From IMG/VR virus record IMGVR_UViG_3300027852_000164, positions 1 through 24,389 of that record: 24,389 nt of DNA; one strand, 5' to 3'. Under the pieces are notes generated by a model, which was given only the letters and a program-made list of their open reading frames with translations, was not told the DNA's origin and did no database searches. Position numbers and translations under genes: made by a program. The stretch is from a virus. This document shows positions 3,860-17,653 of the stretch, piece after piece. The stretch's first letter is position 1. Each line of letters opens with the position of its first letter.

Positions 3860-4858
3860 CTACCTTCTACTTCTGCGAGAAGACCGACTAGGCCTTTCTT
3901 CTTTTGTCGCCCGAGAACGACGAGAGGACCTGGACCTGCGTGCAGGCTTCTCATCTGACTCCTCTTCTTCCTCTCTACCCTTGCGTGCCGTAGACCGTCT
4001 AGAACGACGAGAACCACGCTGGGGTTTCTCCTCCTCTTCGTCCCACGCTCCTTCGTCCTTGTCACCTTCTTCATCCCAATCGTCTTCGTTACCGCCTTCG
4101 TCAAGATCACGATCTGTCTGAGCCTTACTACCTGGGGTGGGCTCTGTACCCATTAGGGCGCACAACTCCTCCATAGTAGGTTCCTCAAACAGCTCTTCAT
4201 ACTCGATAGGCTCTCCACAATTCTCCGTATGCGACTTACCCTCGCGGTCCTCCCACTCCCGCACATAATCTTCTGCTAGCTCCGCCTCATCCATGAACTC
4301 GACGAACTCTATATCATTACCGATTGCTGCATCCTTCTGCCCATCACGAGAAGCCTCAAAGATAGCACCTCTAAGAGTACCCTCACGGGCATGTGCTCGA
4401 ATAAACTTCTTCTGCTGGGAAGGTTTAACAGCCATAAGCTTACGACTGAACTCATGCCTAACATCTTTGCGATCCGTAAACGGGGTAAGATCCAGTACTG
4501 ATAGGAACATGATATAGGTAGAATCTCCTATCTCTTCGCATACCGGGCAGTTATCCCACTCCTTAATGCAAGGGGTATTAAAACCCCACTTCCCTGTATT
4601 AGGATCTTTCATGTTATGTTCGTACATGAAGAAGTCTGGTTTATCGTCCAGTATTACGTATTCTTTAGTTTCCCCCACGGGAACAAAGAAGCGCAGAGGT
4701 TGTCCTGCTTTCTTCTGAGCTGCTTCACGTTTCTCTTTCTGCCGTGCTAGCTCATCGTCTACTCTATCACGCCCCTCATCCCCCCGGTGGAACATACGGG
4801 ATTTGCGACCGCCCTTGTTAGAGGTTTTACCCTTACGTCTTTTGTTACGTTGTGCCAT
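3860..4858 (-). CDS. probable zinc-containing ssDNA-binding protein with RS-like tail
   Basis: A 332-residue protein built in blocks. There is a basic N-terminus (1-50). A core around RFFVPVGETKEYVILDDKPD (56-75) is followed by a probable zinc site using H81, C97, C104 and C107 (H-x15-C-x6-C-x2-C), reminiscent of the T4 gp32 H-C-C-C site. An acidic stretch (251-277) resembles SSB tails that recruit partners. The last ~50 residues (281-332) are arginine/serine-rich, with repeated RRSRRS and RSSRRS units separated by a glutamate run. Position upstream of the SF2 helicase and RecA supports the SSB role, but this is inferred from motif layout rather than clear similarity. A transcription or DNA-packaging cofactor is an alternative. 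ATG at 4858 with GGAG upstream. Confidence 0.65.
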   Translation of the reverse strand: MAQRNKRRKGKTSNKGGRKSRMFHRGDEGRDRVDDELARQKEKREAAQKKAGQPLRFFVPVGETKEYVILDDKPDFFMYEHNMKDPNTGKWGFNTPCIKEWDNCPVCEEIGDSTYIMFLSVLDLTPFTDRKDVRHEFSRKLMAVKPSQQKKFIRAHAREGTLRGAIFEASRDGQKDAAIGNDIEFVEFMDEAELAEDYVREWEDREGKSHTENCGEPIEYEELFEEPTMEELCALMGTEPTPGSKAQTDRDLDEGGNEDDWDEEGDKDEGAWDEEEEKPQRGSRRSRRSTARKGREEEEESDEKPARRSRSSRRSRATKEERPSRSSRRSRR

Positions 4859-5251: not shown

Positions 5252-6250
5252 CTATAACAAACGTGCATCTGCTATCATATGTTGAAACTGATATTCCTCT
5301 AATTCTCCTGGGTCCGAAGGGGGACGCATAGCATCTAACTCCTTGTCGTACACCGTCTTCTCCTTCGGGTATCGTACCTTCATTAACGGTACATGATCAC
5401 CTAACTCTTTCTTGATTACTTTTCGTCCTTTGTGTCCTGCTTCGTCGTCATCGTAGAACACGTAGACCGGTAACGAGAGGTCTTTAAATATCCGCGCTTG
5501 CTGGGGTGTGAGTCCCGAGTGCATAGAAGCGACGGTAGGAAAACCAAACATAAAACCACGACTAAAGTCAAACAAACCTTCAGTAAGTACAATATAGCTA
5601 TCCACGGTTGTATCGATAAATTCAGCCCCGAGAAGTACAAGCCGCTTAGGCAAACCAAAGTAATCACGAATACGAGGCTCAACCCCTGATAAAGTCGCTC
5701 TACCGGTGTACCCATAAAAAGCTCCAGACGGAGAATACACAGGAAATAGAATTCGTTCATCTCCTCTGTTGTCGGGATCGATTCGCAAATCCAGCCGTGC
5801 AATTGTCTCATCATCTAATCCTCTGCTGTGTAAGTAAGGGTGGCCTACCGCGCTGTCGTATACATCCAGATAGTCATCTGATACAGGTTCGCCCAACTGC
5901 TGGTTCTTTGTATCATAAGACTGTCTATGATCCCAATCGGGCAAACTGCCTCCAAGAAACTCATCTGCCTCCACCGCTTTGATGAGGGTCTTATAAGTGT
6001 CTCCTGTATACCTCTCCATCCTTTCCAAAAACTGAGGCAATGTTCCTTTACATTTACAGGTAAAACAATTGAACACTGACTCTTCGTACAAATTCTCTTT
6101 AACACCAAAGCTCATGTTAGCGTCGGTGCCTCTTTCATGAGTCCATGGGGCCAGTGGACAATGAGTACTAACCCACTCCCCTTGGTCTCGCATCTTTACA
6201 TTCGGACCTACCACTTCTCGCAAGAACTGTCTTATATCATGCCTGTTCAT
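5252..6250 (-). CDS. DnaG-type DNA primase (zinc finger + TOPRIM)
   Basis: A 332-residue primase that lays RNA primers at the fork. The N-terminal zinc-binding domain uses a histidine/cysteine pair around H30-C31 and C62/C65/C67 within VFNCFTCKCKGTL. The linker HPYLHSRGL (137-145) is typical of the DnaG family. The TOPRIM core has the catalytic glutamate in VLTEGLFDF (E224) and the metal-binding aspartates in VFYDDDEAG (D267-D269). It is shorter than bacterial DnaG (about 580 residues) and lacks the helicase-binding C-terminal domain, as is usual in phages. Its ATG overlaps the TGA of the upstream coiled-coil gene (ATGA), indicating coupling. Partner: the DnaB-like helicase at 9792-11135. Confidence 0.9.
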   Translation of the reverse strand: MNRHDIRQFLREVVGPNVKMRDQGEWVSTHCPLAPWTHERGTDANMSFGVKENLYEESVFNCFTCKCKGTLPQFLERMERYTGDTYKTLIKAVEADEFLGGSLPDWDHRQSYDTKNQQLGEPVSDDYLDVYDSAVGHPYLHSRGLDDETIARLDLRIDPDNRGDERILFPVYSPSGAFYGYTGRATLSGVEPRIRDYFGLPKRLVLLGAEFIDTTVDSYIVLTEGLFDFSRGFMFGFPTVASMHSGLTPQQARIFKDLSLPVYVFYDDDEAGHKGRKVIKKELGDHVPLMKVRYPKEKTVYDKELDAMRPPSDPGELEEYQFQHMIADARLL

Positions 6251-6720: not shown

Positions 6721-6748
6721 AGTATATACAATTCTTCGCTGATGTCAA
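6721..6748 (-). promoter_or_regulatory. sigma70-like promoter for the primase operon
   Basis: On the minus strand the -35 TTGACA (6748-6743) and -10 TATACT (6726-6721) are separated by 16 bases. The -35 overlaps the stop codon of the DNA polymerase gene. The transcript would lead into the 143-residue coiled-coil gene and primase. A further TATAAT on the same strand (about 6703-6698) lies downstream but has no matching -35. Confidence 0.7.
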
Positions 6749-9387
6749 GCCTCGATCACCATGTACTCCGGTATAGGGAGTCTACCGTTGTCTGGTGGTA
6801 TCACTTGTTCTGGTAAATCAAACATATACTCCTCTTCTTCCTCATCCCAAGCTAGTTCGTCAAAGTCATACTCATCGTCCAGAGTTAAGCCTGCCATCTC
6901 ATAGGTCTCTCCTCCATTCCAACCAAAACCCACATCAGCTACGATAGGTACTTTCATCTTCCTGCCAAACCATTCCTCTAATGGGTTTGTTTCCATATAA
7001 TGTTTCAAGGTCTTGGCTCCCCACTCCAAACAATCTTCCGGAACATATGCATAGATAGCATCATGAACAAACCCCATGACTTGCATATATTCAGGGTTAA
7101 CTTCTGCAACCAGTCTGGCGATAGACATCACACCAAGATCAGATCCGAAATTCTGTACAGGACTATTAATCGCTTGCCTTACTGCTTCTGCCTGGATACC
7201 AGTATCCTCTGAGTGAACCATAGGAAGGTGGCGTATACGCCCCGAGTAGGACCTTACATAGCCGTAGTCCATGGCAAAATCCCGAGTAGCGTCATGCCAT
7301 AGGGGTAAGCTGCAATACTTACTAAAGAAACCGCTACGTATGCGTCGTGCTTCTTGTTCAGTAAACTCTACTCCATACTGTGTCTTCGCATAAATAATAA
7401 ACTTGCGCCAACCCATACCATAAAGGAAACCAAAATTCACAGCCTTAGCTTTAAACCTAGCTAGACTCTGCTCCTCTTTAGGCAGAGCATCGAACTCCTT
7501 CATCGTTACACCCATTACGATGGTTGCTGTTGCCTTATGGATGTCTCCCCCGCTCCCATAAATACTAAGCATGGTTCTATCATTAGACATGTCAGCTGAT
7601 ATACGTAGCTCTGCCTGGGATAGATCCGCCTCTAATACTACAAAACCGGGTGGTGGTATAAAGATCTTACGATACGCTTTAGCCTGCTTACCACGCTTAG
7701 GAAAGTTCTGACCATTGGGATCTCGTGAAGCTGTTCTGCCTGTTACTGCGGTCCACAAAGAATAAATAGGATGTATCTTACCATTGACAATATAATTCTC
7801 TCTGAACCTTCGCACGTTAGTACCGAGCAACCGATCCATCTTCATCCACTCTGCTAGATCTGTACAAAACTCTCCAGCGTGAGCGTGATCGAAAAAGAAA
7901 GGTAAATGATCTTTAGAACTGGTAGACGGTATCTGAAATTCTGGATCTAGATTTTGAGTGGCTTTGGTGTATGTTCTGGGCGTCAGTCGATATCCATCTG
8001 CATGGTTGAACAGTATGTCAAGGAGAAATGCCTTACGGCTAAACTTTAGACCAGCCTCTGCGTGTATCTGCTTAATACTTCTAGGCACCTGAGCCATAAG
8101 TCGTACACGGATATCCTCTACATACTCCGCAAGCACATCTTCAAACTCATCTAGTGCTAACTCATCAACATTCATGCCAGTATGTTCGATAGGCACAAAA
8201 GCATTAATTCCTGGAATCGCTACCCTGCGATAGTACGCCCATAGCTTCTCATCCTGGTAGACCTCGTGTCCCAGTTCTTCAAATACCCTAAAACAGGCAT
8301 CAACATCCCCACAACCATAGCCTAGTATTTCTGTTAGCGGCACAAGATCCATACGGGATTTATCATACTTGCTGTTGAACGTATCAGCATAGCCTGCCAT
8401 CTCCGGAGCATAGATCTTGGTAAGCGTATCCAGATCTTTGGTCATAGAATTCTCATCCACTATCGCTGCTAACATAAGCGTGTCATGGTCTATCCGGAAT
8501 CTAAACCCGAGACGATCTAATATCCATAATGCATCGTATTTCAGATTCTGCCCAAACACACTAGTCTTTGGGTTCTGTAGTAGTTGTTTAAGCTGTCGAA
8601 TGATCTTAGCTTTCTGCCGCATCGAAGCTGGTGCATCTGGGTGATCCCACGATAACAGATAAGCCCGTCCTGGTTCTGTGCAAAACTGCATAGTCAATAA
8701 CTTACAACTGGACTCCTGCCATCGCATACCTTTGGTTTCAGTATCGAACGCTAGAAGCTCCGGCTCTTCATCGATAAGAAACTGTAAATCAGTGATCAGC
8801 TCATATTTACCAAGTACATCCTGCTCTGCTGCTTCTAAGTCATAGTCGTGGTCCACAAATCTGCCAAGTGATTTGCAATCGCTTGCAAATATAGGTTCGT
8901 GCTGTGGGTTTAGATGTACATGTGTTGGGTCCATGATCGGTAAAACCCAGGTCTCATGTTCTCTGTTGTACTCTGGTACGCCTCGCACCTTAGATATCTT
9001 TACCGACCTACCAGCAACTGCCTTTGCTGCCTCCGCCCCCAATGGAATGATTACATCTGGTTTCATCTTCTCGATTAGACGTAGTAGATGCTCACGGCAA
9101 TGGTGCTCTATGATATGCCGATCCTTTGATCTCCACCTAGTTGCGTCATACCCACACTTAATGGCATTGGTGAATACAAAATCACCTTTACCAAACCCAG
9201 CATCTTTCATATGTTTACCCAACAAACGCATCGCAGCTGGTGTTAGGTTATTCTTGTTCCGTACCATAGCATCTGTGGTGGGTTTACCTACTACCAGGAA
9301 TCTGGCTTGTATGCCGCCTTTATTCTTTATCTTCCTACAGGTAAGTAGGCATTCATCGCAAGGTTCATCAAAGCGTACTGTTCTCAT
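6745..9387 (-). CDS. polA-like: family A DNA polymerase with N-terminal UDG-like domain
   Basis: An 880-residue replicative polymerase. Residues 1-180 resemble a family 4 uracil-DNA glycosylase and keep the four cysteines expected for an Fe-S cluster (C10, C13, C78, C97), but the catalytic motifs are altered (GKPTTDAM, DPTH). The 3'-5' exonuclease follows: Exo I D215/E217, Exo II N281-D285, Exo III Y357-D361. Polymerase motif A is D588-L-S-Q-A-E-L-R. The motif B O-helix has R644, K648, F652 and Y656. Motif C is H775-D776-A777, where the usual glutamate is replaced by alanine. F652 matches the E. coli F762 position. An acidic C-terminal extension (about 826-880) is not part of the standard fold. 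ATG at 9387, three bases after the previous stop. Confidence 0.93.
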   Translation of the reverse strand: MRTVRFDEPCDECLLTCRKIKNKGGIQARFLVVGKPTTDAMVRNKNNLTPAAMRLLGKHMKDAGFGKGDFVFTNAIKCGYDATRWRSKDRHIIEHHCREHLLRLIEKMKPDVIIPLGAEAAKAVAGRSVKISKVRGVPEYNREHETWVLPIMDPTHVHLNPQHEPIFASDCKSLGRFVDHDYDLEAAEQDVLGKYELITDLQFLIDEEPELLAFDTETKGMRWQESSCKLLTMQFCTEPGRAYLLSWDHPDAPASMRQKAKIIRQLKQLLQNPKTSVFGQNLKYDALWILDRLGFRFRIDHDTLMLAAIVDENSMTKDLDTLTKIYAPEMAGYADTFNSKYDKSRMDLVPLTEILGYGCGDVDACFRVFEELGHEVYQDEKLWAYYRRVAIPGINAFVPIEHTGMNVDELALDEFEDVLAEYVEDIRVRLMAQVPRSIKQIHAEAGLKFSRKAFLLDILFNHADGYRLTPRTYTKATQNLDPEFQIPSTSSKDHLPFFFDHAHAGEFCTDLAEWMKMDRLLGTNVRRFRENYIVNGKIHPIYSLWTAVTGRTASRDPNGQNFPKRGKQAKAYRKIFIPPPGFVVLEADLSQAELRISADMSNDRTMLSIYGSGGDIHKATATIVMGVTMKEFDALPKEEQSLARFKAKAVNFGFLYGMGWRKFIIYAKTQYGVEFTEQEARRIRSGFFSKYCSLPLWHDATRDFAMDYGYVRSYSGRIRHLPMVHSEDTGIQAEAVRQAINSPVQNFGSDLGVMSIARLVAEVNPEYMQVMGFVHDAIYAYVPEDCLEWGAKTLKHYMETNPLEEWFGRKMKVPIVADVGFGWNGGETYEMAGLTLDDEYDFDELAWDEEEEEYMFDLPEQVIPPDNGRLPIPEYMVIEA

Positions 9388-9390
9388 CTG

Positions 9391-9795
9391 TCACGCCATC
9401 CCATCATTAAGTAAGTGCACCGCTACTGGTACCCCAGGTTCTATCATACCCTCGAAAGCGCTTGTATGCTCCGATCTAATGCGTAATGTACTATCTATCG
9501 TGTTCACCCCTACCCTAAACGGAAACACTGGAAATCCGGATATACAATACCATTCCGGTGCGCTAGAGTTGCACTTACCTACCAACAAAGGTTTCGTCAT
9601 ATAGTCCCCTTCTATACGTACCACGCCTGTCATATCCTTGAGGCAAAACACAAGTAGATAAAAAGTATTATGGTACCTCACACGTAGATTGTAAACATCA
9701 TCGCCTTCTGGTAGTACTGAGGCTTTAGGTACCTTGGCTGTTTGAGGTCGGGGTGCCCTATACTGGCTGCTATGTTTCCAGAGTCTACTTATCAT
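9391..9795 (-). CDS. hypothetical protein between helicase and polymerase
   Basis: A 134-residue protein of unknown function. Beta-rich composition with alternating hydrophobics (YNLRVRYHNTFYLLVFCLKD) and a second strand-rich block (WYCISGFPVFPFRVGV). No membrane segment is convincing and no signal peptide is present. Its ATG overlaps the TGA of the DnaB-like gene (ATGA at 9795-9792) and its stop is four bases from the polymerase start, so it is embedded in the replication operon. A small OB-fold or polymerase-associated factor is possible but unsupported by any motif I can name. Confidence 0.7.
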   Translation of the reverse strand: MISRLWKHSSQYRAPRPQTAKVPKASVLPEGDDVYNLRVRYHNTFYLLVFCLKDMTGVVRIEGDYMTKPLLVGKCNSSAPEWYCISGFPVFPFRVGVNTIDSTLRIRSEHTSAFEGMIEPGVPVAVHLLNDGMA

Positions 9796-11135
9796 GACAT
9801 ATAGTCCATATCCGGTCTCTGGGCCTGCTCATCTTCTGGGGATGTAACCTCGGATATGGGTAACTCTCCGAAGTTGGTTGGGCCAAAAGCAAAGCTACAA
9901 CCAAACGCACCTGACTCCCCCTCTCTTCCTTTCAACACTTCATTGTATCTGCTGGGTGTATACTCCTCAGTACCTATAGTAGTCAACTGATAATCTTCAT
10001 GCTCCTCATCATACTCGTAACCGATTATATCCCTCTGCTGCTTAACAGCTATCTTGGTAGCTACGATAATACTGGCATGGGTAGGTATAGCATCCGTGTA
10101 GCCTATGTTCTCTAGGTTGCCTGCCTTGCCGTCTTTACCTGCGCCTTTGCCAAACTGGGTGGTGGCAATGATAGGTCTATGCCGTGTTAGGGTCATACGT
10201 TTTAGGTCATCCGTAAGGTACGCCGCTTTCTCGTACCTACCCATCCTTGAGTTTCCTGTGCTGGGAGTCATCAGGTACATGCCATCGATATAGATCGCAT
10301 CCGGTTCCAGCTCCTGTATGAGTATGTCTACATCATCTGCAGTCTTATTGAAATTACCTGCAAACAAATGAAAATTATGAGCATCCCCCATGGATACCAA
10401 AGAATCATCAAACCTACGCTTAGCCCAATTAGACAGTTTACCCTTTCGTACCATTTCCGGATCTACATTACCATGGTGTGCAGAAAAGCGCATAGCTATC
10501 TGCGGTAGGGTCATCTCCATCGATACAAACAGTACTGACTTCTGCGCCATCCATGCTGTGCGGGACGCATGTATCAGCATGTGTGTTTTACCTATGCTGG
10601 GTCTGGCCACCCATACAACCAAGTCACCATTCTGGTACCCTCCTGTCTCTTCATCCAGATAATCCCAACCTGTCGGTATCCCTGAAAAACCTGGAGCCGC
10701 ATGCTGGTGTGCATATTCTGCTCTCACCTCATCGGTAAGCTCTGCTAGCGTCTGTAATTCCTGCTGTTGCCCCGAAAAGGGGGTGCATATTCTTCTAATG
10801 CTGTTCGCAGACGATAACATGCCTGGGATGTCTCTATCAGTGATAGCGGTGCGTAAAGGGCCGAACTCATCCCTTACGTTGGTGTAGACGTGTCGATCAT
10901 GAACCTCTTGCAGATAGTAGTCTACATGTTCCGGCGTCTCTGGTAGTCTGGTATCGGTCTCCGCTTCGATGGTTTCTACTAAAGGCAACTCACCATACCT
11001 GCGATAATGGTTGCGCATAAAAGCTAAAACACCAACCTCTTCGTCGTCCACTAACAAATCGTTATCTATTAATCTGAAAGTAGTAGTGCTTCCATTCTCT
11101 GCCACGGAAGCTAATAGGCGTAATCCTGCAGACAT
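9792..11135 (-). CDS. dnaB-like: DnaB-like replicative helicase
   Basis: A 447-residue RecA-fold hexameric helicase. The ATPase domain begins at GIPTGWDYLDEETGGYQNGD (152-171), the typical DnaB entry. Walker A is ARPSIGKT (177-184), the catalytic glutamate lies in FVSMEM (E207), and Walker B is IYID (281-284). The N-terminal ~130 residues would be the primase/loader-interacting domain. It unwinds DNA 5'-3' ahead of the polymerase and stimulates primase. The gene is coupled to the upstream 217-residue gene by a TAATG overlap and to the following gene by ATGA. The C-terminal tail is acidic and disordered. Order initiator, unknown, DnaB resembles the initiator/loader/helicase logic of other phages. 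Confidence 0.92.
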   Translation of the reverse strand: MSAGLRLLASVAENGSTTTFRLIDNDLLVDDEEVGVLAFMRNHYRRYGELPLVETIEAETDTRLPETPEHVDYYLQEVHDRHVYTNVRDEFGPLRTAITDRDIPGMLSSANSIRRICTPFSGQQQELQTLAELTDEVRAEYAHQHAAPGFSGIPTGWDYLDEETGGYQNGDLVVWVARPSIGKTHMLIHASRTAWMAQKSVLFVSMEMTLPQIAMRFSAHHGNVDPEMVRKGKLSNWAKRRFDDSLVSMGDAHNFHLFAGNFNKTADDVDILIQELEPDAIYIDGMYLMTPSTGNSRMGRYEKAAYLTDDLKRMTLTRHRPIIATTQFGKGAGKDGKAGNLENIGYTDAIPTHASIIVATKIAVKQQRDIIGYEYDEEHEDYQLTTIGTEEYTPSRYNEVLKGREGESGAFGCSFAFGPTNFGELPISEVTSPEDEQAQRPDMDYMS

Positions 11136-11788
11136 TAAGTACTCTCCGGACCTTGCACTTCGTATTGGATGGCTCTCTTATTCAGGTAAGCAATGAGCCT
11201 ATCTGACCAGGGTTTCATACCTCTATGCAGTGGTGTTATGGACTGCAGTACAAACGATAAGTTGTAGTGGTACATACAATCCCACAATAAGCTTTCTATC
11301 AACTCCGCATTATCGTTCATATAGAAGCGCGGTTCTTCTGTTAATTGTAGGTGGAAGTCAGGAACGAAATGGTAACAATCTACTGTTCCCTCTTTTACCT
11401 CATCCACACTGGACTCATACCCATCTACACCCACAAGTGTACTCAAGGGCAAAGCGCGTACCTGATTACCTGCTAACCACATCTCCTTCAAGAACAGATG
11501 AAATACTAGATCGCATTGATACACGTTGGATAGATACTGTTTTTCATTCTTCGCCTGTTTAGGGTAGAAGACTACAGGCCGGGGCTCTGCATGTTCATCA
11601 TCAAGATACAACTCATCTGATATTACCTGTCTGAGATCCGATCTACCCTCTATCTCCAGGGTGGTATGCAAAGCATCCCTACTCACGCCTATGTTGAGTA
11701 GATCCATAGACACTCTGTCCATAGGCTTAGTGCGATTAGATCTATCTGCTGCGCTACGTGGGGTTATACGTTTTCTACCAGCGCTCAT
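11135..11788 (-). CDS. hypothetical protein, possible helicase loader
   Basis: A 217-residue protein encoded between the replication initiator and the DnaB-like helicase, coupled to both by ATGA and TAATG overlaps. I see no Walker A. The C-terminal half (WDCMYHYNLSFVLQSITPLH then WSDRLIAYL) is loosely reminiscent of the sensor-1 and trailing helix of DnaC/DnaA-type AAA+ proteins, so it could be a degenerate ATPase, but this is weak. The N-terminus is basic and probably disordered (MSAGRKRITPRSAADRSNR). The helicase-loader role is inferred from position, by analogy with lambda P next to O. Confidence 0.6.
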   Translation of the reverse strand: MSAGRKRITPRSAADRSNRTKPMDRVSMDLLNIGVSRDALHTTLEIEGRSDLRQVISDELYLDDEHAEPRPVVFYPKQAKNEKQYLSNVYQCDLVFHLFLKEMWLAGNQVRALPLSTLVGVDGYESSVDEVKEGTVDCYHFVPDFHLQLTEEPRFYMNDNAELIESLLWDCMYHYNLSFVLQSITPLHRGMKPWSDRLIAYLNKRAIQYEVQGPEST

Positions 11789-13029
11789 GATCTTCTTCCT
11801 CTACGGGATTTATCGGGTTCTTCCTCATATTCTGGCAGATCTTCAAGCGCATTGCGATACTCAATATCTTTATCCACGTTCTCTGCTTTACTATCCCGGT
11901 ACTTTGTAAGTTCTGCTTTGGCTACAGCCAACTGCCTGCGGGTATGATCCAACTCACGTCTACCAGGGGGGCCTGTGCCTTTCAACCTATCAAGAGCTGT
12001 CTCTAGTTGTACCACTTTGGCATTGGCTTTCTCTAACTGCTGAGTGCGTGCGGCCAATCGATTGTCTTGCTGTCTTTGCAGCTTGTCTACTTCCCCTGTC
12101 TGCCGCGCATGATAGTAAGGTGCGAAGTACTTGGTATTCATTTTCAGGAAGAAGGCAACGCTGGGTAATGCTGGTACCTTTTGGTAAGAACGGAATATAC
12201 GCATAAGGTGTGTAGCATAGTCATCCCAATAAACCACGACATCCTGTACATACTCGACCCATCTATCCCCTTTGAAGAACGCCACGTTAGTTACTGACTT
12301 AGCGATCATACCTGCGTCCTTTGCAGTCATACCGGTTATGGGGGTAGAGTCATGTTCTTCTGCGTAATCCGCTACCGCATCATTCCACACTCGGCGCAAC
12401 GCTGTTTTAGTAAAGAGGATTCTGTTGTTTGCTGCTCTGCGTTTACGTCTCTTCCGCGATTCAGTTTGCTGCTCTTCAATTATATCAGTTACAGGTCTCG
12501 TATCGTCTGCGCCGGAGGCGTTGACCATATCACTCTGTTTATCTTCTATCTGTTTACTATTCTCTTTGTTTATACGCTGGTGCTCTTCTGCACCCCCCGC
12601 TGGTGCTAATCTGCACCCCCGCTGGTGCTCTTCTGCACCTACTGAATTCTTATACTTCTTACTTACTTTGAGTGCGCACATGGTTAAGAATGCCTCGATA
12701 CGATCTACCGCCACCTTAATGAAGTTGGATTTAGCAAAATCCTTACCTATGTATATCTGTATCAAACCCATGGCTGACAGCCTACGTAGTATGACTACAA
12801 GGGTTCTTTTTGATACGGGAACCGGTGCCTGGATAACTACCCCATCAGCCGTTACAACGCCTTCTAGAAAGTGTCTGTAGGGTATTCGTTCCTCTTCCTT
12901 CTGGTATCTTAATGTCCGTTCTATTATAAAATCAAGTACAACTCGTTCTGCTGCGTTCAATTCTTTACCAGTATTTCTACGTAGTGCTTGACTGACTCTC
13001 ACGTATACGCTACTATTAAGACTGTTCAT
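11785..13029 (-). CDS. lambda O-like replication initiator (winged helix)
   Basis: A 414-residue protein. Residues 1-115 form a probable winged helix-turn-helix: helix-rich ELNAAERVVLDFIIERTLRY, then VSKRTLVVILRRLSAMGLIQ (72-91) as recognition helix and wing. Residues 116-200 are a low-complexity linker containing two GAEEHQR repeats (131-137, 146-152), encoded by DNA iterons. Residues 200-310 form a second alpha-helical domain. A coiled coil spans about 315-385, and the tail is acidic then basic. The layout, with an N-terminal DNA-binding domain, repeats in mid-gene and replisome genes downstream, matches lambdoid O proteins, which bind the origin inside their own gene. ATG at 13029 with GGAAG upstream; it ends ATGA-coupled to the next gene. 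Confidence 0.8.
   Translation of the reverse strand: MNSLNSSVYVRVSQALRRNTGKELNAAERVVLDFIIERTLRYQKEEERIPYRHFLEGVVTADGVVIQAPVPVSKRTLVVILRRLSAMGLIQIYIGKDFAKSNFIKVAVDRIEAFLTMCALKVSKKYKNSVGAEEHQRGCRLAPAGGAEEHQRINKENSKQIEDKQSDMVNASGADDTRPVTDIIEEQQTESRKRRKRRAANNRILFTKTALRRVWNDAVADYAEEHDSTPITGMTAKDAGMIAKSVTNVAFFKGDRWVEYVQDVVVYWDDYATHLMRIFRSYQKVPALPSVAFFLKMNTKYFAPYYHARQTGEVDKLQRQQDNRLAARTQQLEKANAKVVQLETALDRLKGTGPPGRRELDHTRRQLAVAKAELTKYRDSKAENVDKDIEYRNALEDLPEYEEEPDKSRRGRRS
12533..12639. other. candidate origin of replication inside initiator gene
   Basis: Three iterons (12576-12639) abut a tract at 12533-12575 that is about 72% A+T by hand count and about 79% pyrimidine on the plus strand. In the initiator reading direction the iterons come first and the A+T-rich tract follows, as in the lambda origin inside gene O. 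The assignment is by architecture only. Confidence 0.6.
12576..12639. repeat. three iterons, 19 bp each, 22-23 bp period
   Basis: Copies of GCTGGTGCTCTTCTGCACC start at 12576, 12599 and 12621. The first and third are identical; the second differs at two central bases (TAATC in place of TCTTC). Each contains the inverted repeat GGTGC/GCACC, so each is an imperfect palindrome. Spacing near two DNA turns would put bound dimers on the same face. Confidence 0.9.
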
Positions 13030-15976: not shown

Positions 15977-17653
15977 CTATACGTCCTCGTCGCTACCATG
16001 GGGGCGAGTACGGATACGGCGTTTGCGTAACTCATCCACATTCTCCGGCGACTCATCATAACGCTTAGACGCAGGAGTAGCGTTCTGTTCCATCCATACC
16101 GCCATAGCCTGGATCTGCTCATTATACGTAACGGAGAGCGGTACCATGGCTTTAAGCGCCCGTACAACATGACCCATGGTAAACTCTTCCTCATCAGAGA
16201 AAGCATCTACCAAACCATCCTTAACTGCTGCCTCCAATTCCGCAGGTACATAACCTCTACATGCGTTAAGCACACCCTGGATATCCCCGCGTTTGAAATC
16301 TTTAATATCCCATCCGCGCTTACGTAGATGAATCTCTAGCACTGCCCTGCTCTCTTCTTGAGTAGGAAACCCTGTAGAGAATATGGCATCAAAACGTCCA
16401 CGGCGTAACAGCTCGGGTGGAAGCCCGGTAATGTTGTTAGCCGTTACCATGGTAAATACTGGTGCCTGAGTCTCCTGCAGCCAAGTAAGGAATGAACCCA
16501 ATACTCTGCTGCTGGTGCCCGAATCCCCAGAACCTCCGATACCGCCTAACCCCTTGTCTATCTCATCGCAGAATAGTACGCAAGGTGCCATACTTTCTAC
16601 CATACGCAAAGCTACACGCATTCTCTCTTCTGACTTACCTACCAGTGAGTTGAATACACGACCAAAGTCTAGCCTAACAAGAGGCACACCCAACGTATTG
16701 GCTATGGCCTTAGCGGCCAGAGACTTACCCGTACCGGGCAAACCCACAAAGACTATACCCTTGGGTGGTTCTATACCGAACTCTCGTGCCTCATCTGTAT
16801 AGCAATCGGCCCTTTTCCCTACCCACTCTTTTAGGTTATCCATACCGCCAACATCGTCCATGGAGCCTGGAGCATTCAACTCTAGGATGTCATTCTTATT
16901 AACCACTTCGGTTTTGCCTTTATTCAAACCGCCAACAATGTCATCCGCATCTACCAGACTCTCTTCCTCTTCGCCCTCATCCATAGATGCGGACTCCACA
17001 ATAGCTAGCGAAGCATACATCTCAAAAGCTTCTCTGGACATACCAGCTCCGGCGTAACAAATGCGTTCGTAGTCTTCCGGATCTACATCAATAACATTCT
17101 CATCCACTCCATCGAATACCCCTTCAAGATACCCAAGTAGTTCGGAGTGTGATGGCGGCTCAAACCGTAGAGTAACTACTGAATCATTCAGAGCTTCTGG
17201 GAGCGCTATATCGGGAGTGATTAGTATTACCCGGATATTAGTGGACGCTAGTACATGGCAATACTGTTGTAGGTGGTGTAACAGTACCGGGTTGTCTTCC
17301 AACCAATACTGGGGATTGATATATACAAAATAAGTGTAGACCCCTTGCTTCTCCGCTTCAGCTATATGCGACGCCGGGTTTGCCATACAAGCGTGGATAT
17401 CTGTGTTGCCGCTACCTGTTACGTTCATCTTGAACATATTGGTAACATCGTATTCCTTTACCCCAGAAACAATATCCCACTCCCTGCAATGGTTGCCGTC
17501 TGCCAAGACTGCGCGTCTAGTTGCCAGGGTTGCGCGTACCACTTCTCCGGTACGTACATGAATTACGCCTGCTCCTGAGTCTGATAAGATTCGTAGCTGT
17601 TCCGCAAAGTCTGTTTCGGAATGCCTTCCCGACAAAGTACTAGATACTCTCAT
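15977..17653 (-). CDS. Ycf46-like AAA+ ATPase
   Basis: A 558-residue protein with Ycf46 architecture. The N-terminal degenerate ATPase-like domain contains VYTYFVYINPQYWLEDNP (105-122) and RVILITPDIALPEAL (141-155), ending in RFEPPS. A middle helical segment follows, then a canonical AAA+ domain: Walker A GLPGTGKS (304-311), Walker B VLFCDEIDK (359-367), sensor-1 VTANN (403-407), and an arginine-finger region LLRRGRFD (415-422). The segment VRLDFGRVFNSLVGKSEERM (326-345) matches the Ycf46 signature. The family is known from cyanobacteria, chloroplasts and bacteria; a molecular substrate is not established. It has its own promoter and GGGAG before the ATG, and leads the unknown, DUF1257 and DUF2997 genes. 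Confidence 0.87.
   Translation of the reverse strand: MRVSSTLSGRHSETDFAEQLRILSDSGAGVIHVRTGEVVRATLATRRAVLADGNHCREWDIVSGVKEYDVTNMFKMNVTGSGNTDIHACMANPASHIAEAEKQGVYTYFVYINPQYWLEDNPVLLHHLQQYCHVLASTNIRVILITPDIALPEALNDSVVTLRFEPPSHSELLGYLEGVFDGVDENVIDVDPEDYERICYAGAGMSREAFEMYASLAIVESASMDEGEEEESLVDADDIVGGLNKGKTEVVNKNDILELNAPGSMDDVGGMDNLKEWVGKRADCYTDEAREFGIEPPKGIVFVGLPGTGKSLAAKAIANTLGVPLVRLDFGRVFNSLVGKSEERMRVALRMVESMAPCVLFCDEIDKGLGGIGGSGDSGTSSRVLGSFLTWLQETQAPVFTMVTANNITGLPPELLRRGRFDAIFSTGFPTQEESRAVLEIHLRKRGWDIKDFKRGDIQGVLNACRGYVPAELEAAVKDGLVDAFSDEEEFTMGHVVRALKAMVPLSVTYNEQIQAMAVWMEQNATPASKRYDESPENVDELRKRRIRTRPHGSDEDV

Follow-up and report, generated by a model that had tools for sequence, protein, structure and literature searches.

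A candidate lambda-O-type replication origin within the initiator gene of a phage that encodes its own replication proteins, and a similar layout in distant relatives

The window (the whole stretch of viral DNA analysed here, 24,389 nt) carries a set of replication genes on its minus strand. The gene at 11785-13029 encodes a protein of 414 amino acids that we take to be an O-like initiator, with a winged helix, a disordered linker and a helical C-terminal part in the AF2 model and O-like matches in its family. Next to it lie the gene for a presumed helicase loader (11135-11788, minus strand) and the gene for a DnaB-type replicative helicase (9792-11135, minus strand; PF03796, 1.7e-24; phrog_19, 8e-43). 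These are joined by a family A DNA polymerase with an N-terminal uracil-DNA-glycosylase-like domain (6745-9387, minus strand; PF00476, 2.5e-58; PF01612; PF03167) and a DnaG-type primase (5252-6250, minus strand; phrog_47, 5.5e-28). The gene at 3860-4858 (minus strand) probably encodes a gp32-like SSB. Because it matches an unnamed phage family only (phrog_17226, 8.8e-45), this call rests on synteny: the genes at this position in relatives are annotated as T4 gp32-like SSBs. The replication system looks self-sufficient from its gene content. An earlier note had listed polymerase, primase, helicase and SSB; the first three are borne out by family matches, the SSB by synteny only. The fusion of polymerase and uracil-DNA-glycosylase-like domain is annotated in Pseudomonas phage SM1 too, and a conserved AAA+ ATPase of unknown function (phrog_8638; 15977-17653, minus strand, in the window) precedes the replication cluster of many relatives on the upstream side.

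The AF2 model of the initiator has a mean pLDDT of 78. The predicted winged-helix DNA-binding domain spans codons 6-116 (12682-13014, minus strand), and the 10-residue blocks of residues 11-110 mostly score between 85 and 97. Its fold matches were to MarR-type and DnaD N-terminal domains, with weak E-values. Residues 130-175 (12505-12642, minus strand) have pLDDT values below 50 and form the predicted disordered linker that carries the putative origin. A helical C-terminal region follows (codons 180-311; 12097-12492, minus strand), which presumably contacts the loader or the helicase. The window initiator alone gave no O-family match in family searches that included Phage_rep_O and PHROG. Among 30 members of the initiator family, 8 matched Phage_rep_O (PF04492; best 3.4e-5), and 11 matched the O-like family phrog_678. 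A profile of the family aligned with the O proteins of lambda, phi80, P22 and PSA04 over the winged-helix core (probability score 88, E=2.8e-6), whereas the control alignment with lambda P gave E=0.73. There is good support for the view that the initiator acts as lambda O does; it probably also belongs to the O family, as a remote member.

The presumed loader has a DnaC-type AAA+ fold in its predicted model (pLDDT 83.6). Foldseek matched the model to IstB (2.5e-5) and DnaC (6e-5), with IstB, DnaC and DnaA spanning 2.5e-5 to 1e-4. A profile of the protein gave a weak match to E. coli DnaC (E=0.0028), and the PHROG families gave none for this gene. We rejected the idea that it is a homologue of lambda P (hhalign probability 0.3, E=0.24), its fold being DnaC/IstB-like instead. 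A Walker A motif (GxxxxGK[ST]) was absent from all 24 orthologues inspected (the window and 23 others), and we therefore infer that the loader does not use ATP itself.

Three copies of the dyad GGTGC-N6-GCACC lie within the initiator gene (12624-12639, 12602-12617 and 12579-12594, the first in gene direction named first), with starts 22 and 23 bp apart. In the repeat search they appear as 23-nt copies at 12575, 12598 and 12620, with at least 91% identity and spacings of 23 and 22. The array has a TRF score of 109, and these are the only mismatch-free occurrences of GGTGC-N6-GCACC in the 24.4-kb window. The best periodic-repeat score in the window was 19, compared with a maximum of 12 in 60 dinucleotide shuffles. 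The 40 nt that adjoin the array on the 3' side of the gene are 75% A+T (window, 53%) and purine-rich on the coding strand. This tract (12530-12574), the presumed unwinding element, also holds a weak 16-nt direct repeat (TRF period 16). Both the iterons and the tract are encoded within the disordered residues 130-175. The earlier note had described three imperfect-palindrome iterons of 19 bp at 22-23 bp spacing inside a winged-helix initiator gene, beside an A+T-rich, purine-skewed tract. The gene, the tract, the copy number and the spacing stand, but the symmetric core of each iteron is 16 bp.

The reading frame of the middle copy bears on what kind of repeat this is. The note held that the iterons encode a repeated GAEEHQR peptide, and this is true of the outer two; the middle iteron is frame-shifted and translates to GCRLAPAG. 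Thus, the repetition is kept as DNA and not as peptide, and a protein-level origin of the GAEEHQR repeat is rejected. The broader proposal, that the array is a coincidental minisatellite or a protein-level repeat in a low-constraint linker, appeals to the ease with which tandem repeats arise in linkers, yet it is hardly credible given the out-of-frame middle copy, a repeat at the same place with different sequences in 38 of the 53 loci compared below, and dyads that are conserved in close relatives while the spacer between them, equal in length, is not.

With 33% identity over 160 residues, gp034, a hypothetical protein of Pseudomonas phage SM1 and of phages almost identical to it, is the annotated protein nearest to the initiator. 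The surrounding cluster is broadly syntenic: an AAA+ ATPase, small genes, the initiator, a gene of about 190 codons, DnaB, the uracil-DNA-glycosylase/polymerase, primase, SSB, a helicase and RecA. As SM1 also has repeats at the same place, we tested cultured relatives and IMG/VR contigs systematically. A single-protein search of viral contigs returned no relatives, and the IMG/VR contigs were retrieved with alignments of DnaB, the polymerase and the AAA+ ATPase. The test covered 53 non-redundant loci (the window included) that had DnaB and enough upstream sequence and that share the gene order initiator, loader, DnaB. For each locus we took the best direct repeat with a period of 19-26 within 9.5 kb, and scored whether it fell in a 1.7-kb target 0.9-2.6 kb before DnaB.

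In 38 of the 53 loci the best repeat fell in this target, the orthologous place, against 10.5 expected (binomial p=5e-16), and the same holds for 24 of the 25 loci with a top score of at least 13. Periods of 22 and 23, which are not multiples of three, account for 24 of 33 measured arrays at the orthologous site. The inverted-repeat arms of the repeat units were longer than in shuffled units (combined p=5e-10 with a contiguous-arm metric; an earlier, weaker symmetry metric gave p=8e-6). The repeats are for the most part dyads, and their sequences differ between nearly all loci (for example TCCAAAATTTGG, GGACACTGGTGTCC, GTCCGGAAAACCGGAC, GTCTCAGGCTGAGAC and CCGCCAATCTGGCGG). In the mean of the 38 arrays, the first two 20-nt bins on the 3' side had an A+T excess of +0.21 and +0.23; in all other bins between -200 and +320 the deviation from zero was no more than about 0.09. 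In each of seven complete genomes of cultured phages, at most one other such repeat ranked above the array. In Agrobacterium phage JP1 it lies outside an annotated gene and not in a long initiator ORF. Dozens of distantly related large phages thus appear, by sequence comparison, to have the same layout at the same place with different recognition sequences.

Two further signals were considered. Within the first 90 nt 3' of some arrays there are perfect hairpins whose stems measure 7-9 bp (for example at loci L004, L046, L048, L074, L097 and L037). A hairpin after the A+T tract was present at 12 of 39 loci compared with 42 of 1158 control windows (3.6%; p=3e-8), and the hairpin sequences differ. 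The window has none after its tract, and the hairpin is for this reason left out of our claim about the origin. Cumulative GC skew in nine genomes did not single out the array site; the minimum lies near the array in PA_L9, which we treat as chance, and elsewhere in the other eight.

Close relatives show what is kept at this place. Three of them (L039, L041 and L075) carry GGTGCCAAWTGGCACC twice, 35 bp apart, with the half-sites of the window; one copy in L075 has a changed base. When they are aligned, the two dyads are 88% and 94% identical, the equal-length 19-nt spacer 11%, the A+T tract 75% and the flanks 45%. Conservation of the iterons despite a diverging linker is what the earlier note had suggested looking for, and it is found here. 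In L034 the dyads likewise occur as two copies 35 bp apart, and not at 22-23 bp. Only one clear dyad each was seen in L035, L050 and the closest relative by polymerase (L052, 62% identity). No dyad was recognised in L043 and L064, and no iteron-like direct repeat in L011, L013 and L019. The iteron array is not a universal rule among the relatives.

In Rhodobacter phage RcZahn the initiator array (L012:5745-5807) holds three copies of the dyad GGTGC-N6-GCACC at a spacing of 23 bp. These are the window's half-sites, although the RcZahn initiator is only about 14% identical overall to that of the window. Matches to GGTGCWNNNNNGCACC in the 101.6 kb of RcZahn occur at the initiator array only, and the pattern was not found in the genomes of 30 other relatives. 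The half-sites common to RcZahn and the window are probably the result of convergence. RcZahn also has a second array away from the initiator (L242:2220-2325, at about 82,220 of the record), with five ATGTCCAGATAA-type repeats spaced at about 22 bp, which is possibly a partition or operator site.

Three other explanations for the array deserve discussion. In one, the winged-helix protein controls its own operon by binding the dyads as operators, and replication really starts at another place. The winged helix is of MarR type, and initiators frequently autoregulate via their own iterons. However, the site lies about 400 nt inside the gene and not at a promoter, the one-sided A+T tract joined to it would not be needed for regulation, and the repeats that our detector places at the same position in lambda, P22 and phi80-type phages are O-type iterons. 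We give this explanation a small chance, though a larger one than the two that follow.

The array could also be the partition (centromere) site of a plasmid-like prophage. The relatives DLP5 and DLP3 have genes with ParB domains, and DLP5 replicates in phagemid form (PMC5834331, PMC7326821). We consider this very improbable: the ParB gene of SM1 is located elsewhere, the array is always shortly before DnaB in the replication cluster, and RcZahn has its separate 22-bp array in another part of the genome. Equally doubtful is a role in the mRNA, in which the repeats would form a series of hairpins that serve as attenuators, protein-binding sites or sites of translation control. The transcript does fold better than shuffled sequences (z=-6.4), but the dyads alone explain this folding. 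Moreover, dyads with a centre of 1-2 nt in several relatives (CCAAAATTTGG, GGACACTGGTGTCC, GTCTCAGGCTGAGAC) would make poor RNA hairpins, and the preferred spacing of 22-23 bp is close to two helical turns of DNA.

We consider it highly likely that the element in the window is a lambda-O-type replication origin that lies within the initiator gene of a phage with its own replisome. All the sequence-level predictions that we tested of the earlier note's proposal of a lambda-O-like origin were borne out: a site in the linker after the winged helix, dyads about two helical turns apart, a tract on one side, a place that is kept while the sequence diverges, and iterons that close relatives conserve beside a spacer that they do not. 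The element is real and very probably the phage's replication origin; its kind is known, its setting is new. The best reading of the comparison is that such an in-gene origin is typical of a broad group of phages of about 80-110 kb.

Based on these results, we propose a model for how the origin could work. The anatomy of the array, its conservation at the DNA level, its place in the gene, the synteny and the predicted folds were computed, and to these we add steps modelled on known origins. The winged-helix domain (codons 6-116) would bind the three dyad iterons in the linker stretch of its own gene, probably as a dimer. The resulting nucleoprotein complex may then melt the A+T- and purine-rich tract 3' of the iterons. 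The C-terminal region of the initiator would recruit the DnaC-like, Walker-A-less loader encoded next, and the loader would deliver the DnaB that the phage itself encodes to the melted DNA. The primase, the family A polymerase and the SSB of the phage are expected to act after DnaB has been loaded.

More tentatively, and with rather less than even confidence, we suggest that there is an unrecognised large group of phages of about 80-110 kb with complete replisomes that share one origin module: a winged-helix initiator, in-gene iterons, an A+T tract, often a hairpin, a Walker-A-less DnaC-like loader and DnaB. Fast change of the iterons would give near-private pairs of initiator and origin. If this is true, the shared module would define replication incompatibility groups, and a plasmid-like prophage state such as that of DLP5 might make use of it too. 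The Stenotrophomonas phages DLP5 and DLP3 belong to the same phage group, and in its lysogens DLP5 replicates as a phagemid (PMC5834331, PMC7326821). In a Paracoccus assembly, one relative forms a contig of its own, 96,368 bp long. An iteron origin would suit such a state, of which the window itself gives no sign.

We found no description or annotation of the origins of these phages in the papers and records consulted. The comparison gives a rule for locating them, in the initiator linker and shortly before the DnaB gene, and the rule works in most relatives. It covers cultured phages of Pseudomonas, Aeromonas, Rhodobacter, Stenotrophomonas and Vibrio; in Agrobacterium the array is outside a long initiator ORF. 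The approximately 40 divergent pairs of initiator and iterons are a natural set for the study of how initiators change together with sites that lie within their own genes. The result also suggests that O-type initiation and the host replisome need not go together.

Lambda, P22, phi80 and PSA04 served as positive controls in the same repeat detector, which located their O-type repeats at codons 117-123 and gave them scores of 13.5-25.5. In lambda O and ori-lambda, as in phi80 gene 15 and the O genes of Stx phages, the iterons lie in the initiator gene right behind the DNA-binding domain, and the window has its iterons beyond this domain too (codons 117-145 in lambda, about 130-152 in the window). 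Both have inverted-repeat iterons 20-24 bp apart (16-bp dyads at 22 and 23 bp in the window), an A+T-rich, purine-biased tract 0-40 nt away directly on the 3' side, and the loader gene next; the A+T profile of the lambda origin has the shape of the 38-locus mean. According to published work, the lambda iterons are imperfect inverted repeats of 19 bp to which O binds as a dimer, and two iterons with the A+T region are the minimal unit for unwinding (PMC7466680). The window differs from lambda in that its iterons are unrelated in sequence and number three instead of four, its initiator is only remotely homologous to O, its loader does not match lambda P, and the phage itself encodes DnaB, polymerase, primase and probably SSB. 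By combining an O-like protein with a helicase of its own, P22 offers a partial precedent. The O-like gene 18 has repeats at codons 121-133 and is followed by gene 12 for a DnaB-type helicase, with no separate gene between them, whereas in the window a DnaC-like gene intervenes. Also close are two cultured relatives, the Samunavirus SM1 (gp034) and RcZahn (gene 51), whose syntenic initiator genes are not annotated as origins. SM1 has two perfect 17-bp copies of TCCAAAATTTGGCACAC, 22 bp apart, at the same place and mutually out of frame, and its iterons are unrelated in sequence to those of the window; RcZahn has the half-sites of the window with a very different initiator.
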